Of a stretch of DNA of 64,000 bases, positions 3,280-13,227 are shown one piece after another (positions within the stretch are counted from its first letter, which is position 1; every line of letters starts with the position of its first letter). The position numbers were made by a program, and so were the translations under genes. The notes under the pieces were generated by a model that saw nothing but the letters and a program-made list of their open reading frames with translations, had not been told where the DNA came from and searched no databases. Origin of the DNA: DHVE2 group archaeon (GTDB lineage Archaea; Thermoplasmatota; Thermoplasmata; Thermoplasmatales; Aciduliprofundaceae); the NCBI GenBank assembly GCA_015523125.1, contig WAKX01000014.1, positions 1 to 64,000 on the forward strand, read 5' to 3'.

Positions 3280-3305
<26 letters not shown>
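2679..3305 (+). CDS. Six-helix membrane protein of unknown function
   Basis: A 208-residue protein with a short charged N-terminus and about six hydrophobic segments (roughly residues 25-47, 50-72, 88-108, 118-140, 150-166, 170-192). I do not recognise a family. The start ATG follows a GGTGATGTGA stretch. It overlaps the next gene, a winged-helix regulator, by about 26 bases, so the two are very likely co-translated. Membrane protein plus cytoplasmic HTH pairs like this recur in archaea and may form a regulator with a membrane-bound partner. That role is inference. Confidence 0.75.
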
Positions 3306-5758
<2,453 letters not shown>

Positions 5759-5770
5759 TCACCTCCTTTG

Positions 5771-5793
5771 GTTATCAACTAAGAGTTGATAAC
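5771..5793. promoter_or_regulatory. Perfect inverted repeat between cdc48 promoter and start
   Basis: Arms GTTATCAACT and AGTTGATAAC are exact reverse complements, separated by AAG. The repeat lies 12-35 bases upstream of the cdc48 start. A TATA-like TTTATATAG on the minus strand (5817-5824) would place transcription initiation near 5795, so the palindrome would occupy about +2 to +25. That is a typical place for an archaeal repressor operator; an mRNA hairpin is the alternative. In Archaeoglobus, the HSR1 heat-shock repressor controls an operon containing cdc48 through a palindrome, which makes a stress operator plausible here. Confidence 0.6.
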
Positions 5794-5913
5794 TAATTTT
5801 ACTAAATAAGAACTACTATATAAAGCTTTCGCAAAATCCAATTGGGGAAACATTTTATATTATCTCGTACTTAGTGCTCCAAACCCGTGTTTTGCGGGAG
5901 CGGAGGTGAAAAA

Positions 5914-7191
5914 ATGGACGAATTTGAGAGGGCCGTGGAATCAATATACGTTGCTCTCAATGGCAAAGTTGAGAAAGAGAGAATAAGAAAAGAGCTGAGG
6001 AAGTGGATAACCCAGTACGGGGTGAGCATATCCGAGGCTAAGAGGAGCATAGTTTCCAACTACGGGGGCGATGTTCGGGAACTGCAGAATTCTATAAAAG
6101 CGGTGAATGAGCTCAGCGCAGGAGAGGGCCGTGTGAATCTTAGAGTGAAGGTGCTGAGCATAAATCCGAAAGAGTACGAAGTGGATGGAACTAAAAAAAT
6201 AATGCATTATGGATTGATAGGAGACGAAAGCGGAGTGATTCCATTCACCGCCTGGAAGTTGGATGTGGAGCTTAGAAAGGGGGACTGCGTTGAAATAACT
6301 AATGCGTACACGAAAGAATGGCAGGATCGCGTTACCCTCGTGATCGGGCAAAACACCCGACTAAAATTATTGCCTCCGGACTCTGTGAAGGTGAAAATGG
6401 AAATCAAACCTTCAAAAATAGTGGAGCTGCATCCAAAGATGGGTCTGGTTGAGGTCGTGGGAAAAATAATGAGCGTTGACGAGAGAGAAATAGAAGTGGA
6501 CGGCGTGCCGAGGAAGATTTACTCGGGAATAATCGCAGACGACACAGGAGAAATAATATTTACCTCCTGGGATGTGCCCGTGCAGAAGGACAAAGTTCTG
6601 AAAATCTCGGGAGCTTATGTGTCGACGTTCAGGGGCATGCCCCAGTTGGTACTGGATAATCGCTCCCACGTGGAAGAAGTGGACAGAGAAATTGAGATAA
6701 AGGATATACCGGTGAACATCGAAAGCTTAGAGGGTAAGGGGGGTTTGAACGTTCTAATAGAAGGTGTGGTGATAGACATCAAGGACGGAAGCGGGCTGAT
6801 ATCGAGATGCCCCGAATGCGGGAGAGTTCTCACGGGAACCAATTGCCCAGTCCATGGGAAAGTGACGCCGAAGCCGGACCTGAGAATAAAGGCTATAATC
6901 GACGACGGCACGGGAGCTGTACTAGCTCTATTCAACCGCGAGATGAGCGAAGAAGCTCTAGGCATGTCTTTCCATGAAATTCTGGAGAAGGCCAAGGAGA
7001 ACATAGGGTATCCATCCATGCTCGTTGATGAAATAGAGGAAAAGCTCATAGCGAGACCAATCATGGTTCGGGGAAATGTTAGCAGCGACCCCAAGTACGG
7101 GTTGAGAATGTTCGTTAACGAGTTCAGGATGCTCAATCTGGAGGACATCGCGAAGAAAGCCGAGAAAATGTTAGAGGAGATGGGGTGGTAA
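5914..7191 (+). CDS. Replication protein A, large subunit-like (zinc-finger RPA)
   Basis: A 425-residue single-stranded DNA-binding protein. It has an N-terminal helical region followed by about three OB folds, visible as repeated segments such as VEVDGVPRKIYSGIIADDTGEIIFTSW and VDGTKKIMHYGLIGDESG. A zinc-finger segment, CPECGRVLTGTNCPVHG, lies near residue 298. It coats ssDNA in replication and repair. The start is ATG 5914, preceded by GGAGGTGA with 4-5 spacer bases; an upstream in-frame codon at 5887 is rejected. A TATA-like TTTTATATT lies near 5853. The next gene begins 2 bases after its stop, giving an RPA plus RPA-associated-protein operon. Confidence 0.92.
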   Translation: MDEFERAVESIYVALNGKVEKERIRKELRKWITQYGVSISEAKRSIVSNYGGDVRELQNSIKAVNELSAGEGRVNLRVKVLSINPKEYEVDGTKKIMHYGLIGDESGVIPFTAWKLDVELRKGDCVEITNAYTKEWQDRVTLVIGQNTRLKLLPPDSVKVKMEIKPSKIVELHPKMGLVEVVGKIMSVDEREIEVDGVPRKIYSGIIADDTGEIIFTSWDVPVQKDKVLKISGAYVSTFRGMPQLVLDNRSHVEEVDREIEIKDIPVNIESLEGKGGLNVLIEGVVIDIKDGSGLISRCPECGRVLTGTNCPVHGKVTPKPDLRIKAIIDDGTGAVLALFNREMSEEALGMSFHEILEKAKENIGYPSMLVDEIEEKLIARPIMVRGNVSSDPKYGLRMFVNEFRMLNLEDIAKKAEKMLEEMGW

Positions 7192-13181: not shown

Positions 13182-13227
13182 ATCACCAATAATAAATATA
13201 CATTGTATATTTAAAAATTACGTTTAA

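Follow-up and report, generated by a model that had tools for sequence, protein, structure and literature searches.

A predicted heat-shock operator at the cdc48 and hsp20-regulator promoters of a DHVE2 group archaeon and its relatives

The cdc48 gene in the window (the whole stretch of 64,000 nucleotides analysed here) is preceded by a palindrome, the predicted operator for a Phr/HSR1-type heat-shock repressor. Judged from sequence, this is very probably the function of the palindrome, with the repressor encoded elsewhere in the genome by the gene directly after hsp20 (C46:1933-2394). At normal temperature, a dimer of the regulator would bind the two half-sites at the transcription start and would deny RNA polymerase access to both promoters, including that of its own gene, which would thus be repressed by way of the hsp20 promoter. 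Upon heat stress binding would be lost and the cdc48 and hsp20-regulator promoters would fire; the regulator made together with hsp20 would then shut the response off again.

The palindrome at the cdc48 promoter

The features of the locus are collected in Table 1. Two 10-base arms, GTTATCAACT and AGTTGATAAC, flank the central AAG, and this sequence occurs once within the window. An exact palindrome with arms of this length close to the predicted start of cdc48, as proposed in the earlier note, is confirmed, with a TATA box 31 nt before its first base. On the cdc48 strand the TATA box (5824-5817) is followed by the palindrome (5793-5771), the Shine-Dalgarno stretch (5769-5760) and the start codon. 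Given the distance of TTTATATA to the palindrome, transcription is expected to start at the palindrome or a few bases before it. A promoter and terminator scan was set aside since it used a bacterial promoter consensus.

Table 1 Features of the cdc48 locus in the window
Feature	Position	Strand	Basis or remark
Predicted palindromic operator GTTATCAACT-CTT-AGTTGATAAC (cdc48 strand), half-site core AAC-N5-GTT	5771..5793	-	sequence, recurrence
TATA box of cdc48, TTTATATA	5817..5824	-	first base 31 nt before operator
Shine-Dalgarno stretch of cdc48, AAAGGAGGTG	5760..5769	-	directly after operator
cdc48, CDC48-family AAA ATPase, putative regulated gene	3575..5758	-	family model match
Small winged-helix gene, convergent with cdc48	3280..3588	+	rejected as regulator
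Divergent gene, OB-fold ssDNA-binding domain	5914..7191	+	own TATA-like stretch 5853-5860, away from operator

The product of cdc48 is a full CDC48-family ATPase (1137 bits, cut-off 803). Translation probably begins at the inner ATG at 5752 (window 5750-5758), since the relatives G007 and G002 have no outer ATG and the spacing to GGAGG is better. We assume that the divergent gene stands outside the control of the operator. The genome encodes a second, diverged cdc48 (G000:C17:4972; 45% over the N-terminal 200 residues), before which no operator was seen by eye. A plasmid search gave no match.

Perfect palindromes with 10-bp arms and a loop of at most 8 are found twice in the window, at 5771-5793 and at 13193-13213, the latter reading TAAATATACA-T-TGTATATTTA. 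In 40 dinucleotide shuffles of the window their mean number was 0.9; at least one was present in 21 of the 40 shuffles and at least two in 10. The bare palindrome is within chance expectation, and it is its position and its recurrence that set it apart.

The genome of the host (1.54 Mb in 62 contigs, 95% complete) holds one further place with at most 3 mismatches to the palindrome. It is located on contig C46 before hsp20, in the same layout as at cdc48, and bears out the suggestion that the palindrome should be sought before hsp20. With a looser pattern the cdc48 site had no mismatch and the hsp20 site one, no place had two, and 8 places had three; the control likewise gave 8 places at up to 3 mismatches. 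The cdc48 and hsp20-regulator promoters therefore stand out in this genome and no other promoter is comparable. As the control yielded just as many, the 8 places with 3 mismatches were rejected as a wider regulon. An extension to proteasome and thermosome genes, also raised earlier, found no backing, with two good sites only in the genome-wide scan and no site by eye at the two thermosome promoters. Four loose places, one in this genome and three in G002 and G005, were inspected in their context and, by eye, had no resemblance to promoter sites, except that the one on G005:C65 precedes a possible radical-SAM-like frame.

Recurrence in the Thermoplasmata

We searched 61 related genomes for GTTRWYAAC-N5-GTTRWYAAC with at most one mismatch, using the backward pattern as control. 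The pattern matched at 47 places in 35 of the 61 genomes (two of them overlapping in a single promoter of G042), the control at one place. Of these places, 45 precede cdc48 or an hsp20 gene, the latter including the second hsp20 in hsp20b-cdc48 units. One of the remaining two lies at a contig end and has the sequence of an hsp20b promoter. The other (G016:C184:7485; L142:586-608) is a site-like sequence that resembles a direct repeat of GTTAACAAC more than a palindrome; it sits between a TATA-like stretch and the Shine-Dalgarno sequence of a small membrane-protein frame, for which no Pfam family scored over the cut-off. This site could be due to chance or to a mobile element.

Scoring of promoters selected by gene gave a similar picture: 45 of 50 promoters scored at least 0.86, compared with a 99th percentile of 0.79 and a maximum of 0.86 in 2500 shuffles. 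The five promoters below 0.86 include the cdc48 promoter of G020 (0.64). Locus L041, which lacks upstream sequence, was left out of this scoring, L018 likewise has no upstream sequence, and G005 was recovered from L147. Within the family of the window the hsp20 site is present in 18 of 18 genomes (17 by gene-based scoring, G005 from its locus). A cdc48 of the window type (63% or more) was found in 17 of the 61 genomes, and in 16 of the 18 of the family; all 16 family members of this type have the site, five directly and 11, including that of G016, through an hsp20b-cdc48 unit. Absence of the palindrome before cdc48 of relatives and elsewhere, which the earlier note had named as evidence against its own reading, is thus not what we found.

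The site also keeps its place in the promoter. For 31 of the 32 promoters scored in the family of the window, the first base of the TATA box is at -26 to -32 from the operator, and in the Thermoplasma/Ferroplasma-type family the operator follows 25-26 bases after it in 15 of 19 places. From this distance the operator is predicted to cover or directly follow the transcription start. When cdc48 promoters were compared in pairs, the operator was 83-87% identical in five of six pairs versus 27-55% for the 22-base spacer upstream; the sixth pair is a close one, with 86% identity in the spacer and 100% in the operator.

Conservation at cdc48 is not complete. No site was seen by eye at eight cdc48 loci (L025-L032, from G005, G008, four f3 and two f6 genomes), which were not scored. 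Together with the low value for G020, these loci indicate that cdc48 is not a universal target. In family f4 it is the more diverged type of cdc48 (about 48%) that bears the operator. The hsp20 promoter of G018 (L054, upstream of 90) has ATCAAC and GTTGAT six rather than five bases apart, apparently a spacer variant. G010 carries an identical 23-base operator with near-identical flanks before hsp20b at two places (C36:737 and C71:14156), one of the contigs being cut at its end; either the region is duplicated or the assembly is at fault.

When 145 genomes of the phylum were scanned strictly, nine had exact matches (control: none), two of which are outside the order of the host. In one of these, G145, none of the four genes was found in the 3-kb locus. 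In the other, G076, the operator directly precedes a Phr-like gene, with cdc48 immediately behind it. A search with the Phr-like protein of G076 matched 49 of 80 genomes of the class and returned 30 loci; leaving aside G076, we read the 26 that lie outside the order. In eleven of them the 140 bases before the regulator gene contain a site scoring at least 0.86 (rounded), and in five of the eleven (G129, G114, G085, G208, G228) cdc48 lies downstream; in shuffles of 17 of the loci a fraction of 0.0006 of 1700 regions reached 0.86. Nine further loci are hsp20-regulator-hsp20 units. Their best sites score 0.74-0.88 and are flanked by a TATA-like stretch on one side and the Shine-Dalgarno sequence of the first hsp20 on the other; eight of the nine are above the 95th percentile of the shuffles (0.79) and five above the 99th (0.82). 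The last six loci score 0.57-0.81. In several other families of the Thermoplasmata the operator stands upstream of the regulator gene, with cdc48 or hsp20 next in line.

The candidate regulator and alternative readings

The gene directly after hsp20 in the genome of the host (C46:1933-2394) encodes an ArsR-type winged-helix protein of 154 residues with a long C-terminal helix. A match to it is present in 38 of 41 genomes and adjoins hsp20 in 37 of these 38, as compared by eye. Among proteins of solved structure it matches 2p4w best, the Pyrococcus furiosus heat-shock regulator (E 5.5e-11 by sequence, 1.9e-19 by profile). Foldseek, run with the predicted model of a 94% identical orthologue (pLDDT 90.7), likewise ranked 2p4w at the top (E 8.8e-10). 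The VIA list placed it third (Z 13.6, rmsd 5.2, 150 residues), tied with entries that cover the winged helix only. The curated Phr model NF053602 is the best NCBIfam match, at 53.1 bits against a cut-off of 320; such a score, far below the cut-off, indicates a Phr/HSR1-like regulator and not Phr proper.

Operator and regulator gene also go together in named records. A set of 49 loci from DHVE2 archaea, Aciduliprofundum, Thermoplasma, Ferroplasma and other Thermoplasmata, whose genomes partly overlap the other sets, left 47 scored hsp20-regulator loci, those with hsp20 and sufficient upstream sequence, after L159 and L202 were dropped, and 44 of these have a site of at least 0.86. The regulator was not found in G030 (91% complete) and G021 (80%), where the sites at the cdc48 promoter score 0.95 and 0.81; G033 (82% complete) has a marginal match inside a long frame and a cdc48-promoter site of 0.88. 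Sites precede the transcription unit that contains the regulator gene, both in hsp20-regulator units and in the regulator-first units of other families, and the two putative targets, hsp20 and cdc48, have sites at their promoters in the host genome and in its family. We consider it an even question whether one repressor and two promoters (hsp20-regulator and cdc48) make up the whole dedicated heat-shock regulon, with the switch already present in the ancestor of the Thermoplasmata, the gene orders shuffled since (regulator-cdc48, hsp20-regulator, hsp20b-cdc48, cdc48 alone), the AAC-N5-GTT operator kept or regained at the transcription start, and the thermosome outside.

Four other readings were considered. 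The best surviving of them, still an improbable one, accepts operator and regulator and places the error in the signal or its sign: the protein might sense redox or another stress in the manner of SurR, or might be an activator. The second-best solved relative is indeed PF0095 (2quf, 2qlz), which we take to be SurR, and the SurR model is the second NCBIfam match. This related winged-helix protein is outscored by 2p4w both by sequence and in Foldseek, however, and an alignment inspected by eye revealed no cysteine pair common to it and the regulator. The targets of SurR differ from hsp20 and cdc48. These two genes are the very targets reported for Phr and HSR1 in the available excerpts of PMC5852551 and PMC10746257.

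A little less probable is an action of the palindrome in the mRNA, where a 10-bp hairpin in the 5' leader of cdc48 could serve as thermometer, translation control or stabiliser. The leader of the window does fold into such a hairpin (leader energy -11.8 kcal/mol, a value matched in 3 of 200 shuffles), and four of five leaders have a stem at the operator in their minimum-energy fold; the leader of G006 hsp20 does not form it. The Shine-Dalgarno stretch, however, is unpaired in the minimum-energy folds of the cdc48 leaders of the window and G007, so that the hairpin would not mask the ribosome site. Covariation points both ways. Over 30 distinct sites from the family of the window there are 10 cells with changes on both sides, versus 5.8 in shuffles (10 of 500 shuffles reach this), but pairing amounts to 82.0% versus 81.0% for shuffled partners (77 of 500 reach it), and symmetric changes would also arise in the DNA site of a dimer. 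Moreover, 14 of 29 hsp20 sites (5 of 17 in the window's family) retain at most 7 of 10 possible pairs, and the distance from TATA box to operator is kept, for which an RNA element has no need. An RNA hairpin is therefore disfavoured relative to a DNA operator.

Hardly probable, by comparison, is a different regulator acting at the operator, for instance the convergent winged-helix protein 3280-3588, the candidate proposed in the earlier note. Its gene adjoins cdc48 here and in G002, and beside cdc48 an intact homologue is present in these two genomes (G000, G002). However, the protein was matched in just 22 of 41 genomes; G007 offers nothing closer than 28% identity and neither G012 nor G015 gave a match, while all three (99, 94 and 99% complete) keep operators. 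The copy beside cdc48 in the near relative G003 (G003:C139:2393-2699) is interrupted by stops, no homologue was found in the 1-2.5 kb after cdc48 of G007, G004 and G006, and copies in other genomes are on contigs other than that of hsp20 or far from it. The host genome has a second match to this protein, 69% identical (G000:C12:6196-6450). Distant, absent or broken in genomes that keep the operators, the 3280-3588 protein is not borne out as the regulator, and the product of C46:1933-2394 is most likely the better candidate. The proposal of a Phr/HSR1-like stress operator at cdc48 thus holds as regards the operator, with sites before hsp20 and in relatives, and fails as regards the regulator it named. 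That the palindrome is functionless and due to chance is next to negligible: about one such palindrome arises per shuffled window, but the same sequence is found again at hsp20, in the same place within the promoter, and in relatives, with near-empty controls, which is far beyond chance.

Comparison with known heat-shock regulators

VAT1 is a CDC48 protein, and the gene order in Archaeoglobus fulgidus is hsr1-hsp20-cdc48. A literature search, mainly of non-subscription literature, gave no report of a heat-shock regulator or operator of the Thermoplasmata among the matches listed. Phr and HSR1 are the only two archaeal heat-shock regulators named in the available part of a 2022 review (PMC9133787); PMC5852551 places both in arCOG01684 and gives HSP20 and CDC48 as their targets. 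The predicted switch described here is, on the sequence evidence, a new lineage of this known kind. If this is true, the Thermoplasmata gain a regulator, an operator and a short list of targets that are testable in cultured species, and the Phr and HSR1 systems become tied through regulator family, target genes and, for HSR1, the operator core.

Phr, as described in the same part of the review, binds over the transcription start and bars RNA polymerase from the TBP/TFB complex (PMC9133787). Its sites are palindromic, HSP20 and VAT1 are each preceded by a site of their own, the consensus comprises TTTA, TGGTAA and AAAA, and the regulon has more than 10 genes, as far as the excerpt of PMC10746257 extends. 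Phr (2p4w) is the nearest solved relative of the candidate regulator, and the layout predicted here, with the site over or just after the expected transcription start, would fit steric repression of the Phr type. The two are 26% identical over 146 columns. They differ in that Phr has 202 residues and the candidate 154, that the latter scores below the cut-off for Phr, and that the operator consensus is not the same.

HSR1 of A. fulgidus is an autoregulated heat-shock regulator encoded in an operon with hsp20, and it binds the palindrome CTAAC-N5-GTTAG (excerpt of PMC9133787). The core AAC-N5-GTT is common to both systems and the outer bases differ, TCAAC-N5-GTTGA here versus CTAAC-N5-GTTAG in the published motif, with which, and not with an Archaeoglobus sequence, the comparison was made. 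CDC48 is a target of HSR1 (PMC5852551) and a predicted one here. In the present archaeon, however, cdc48 has a promoter and an operator of its own, and the regulator gene follows hsp20.
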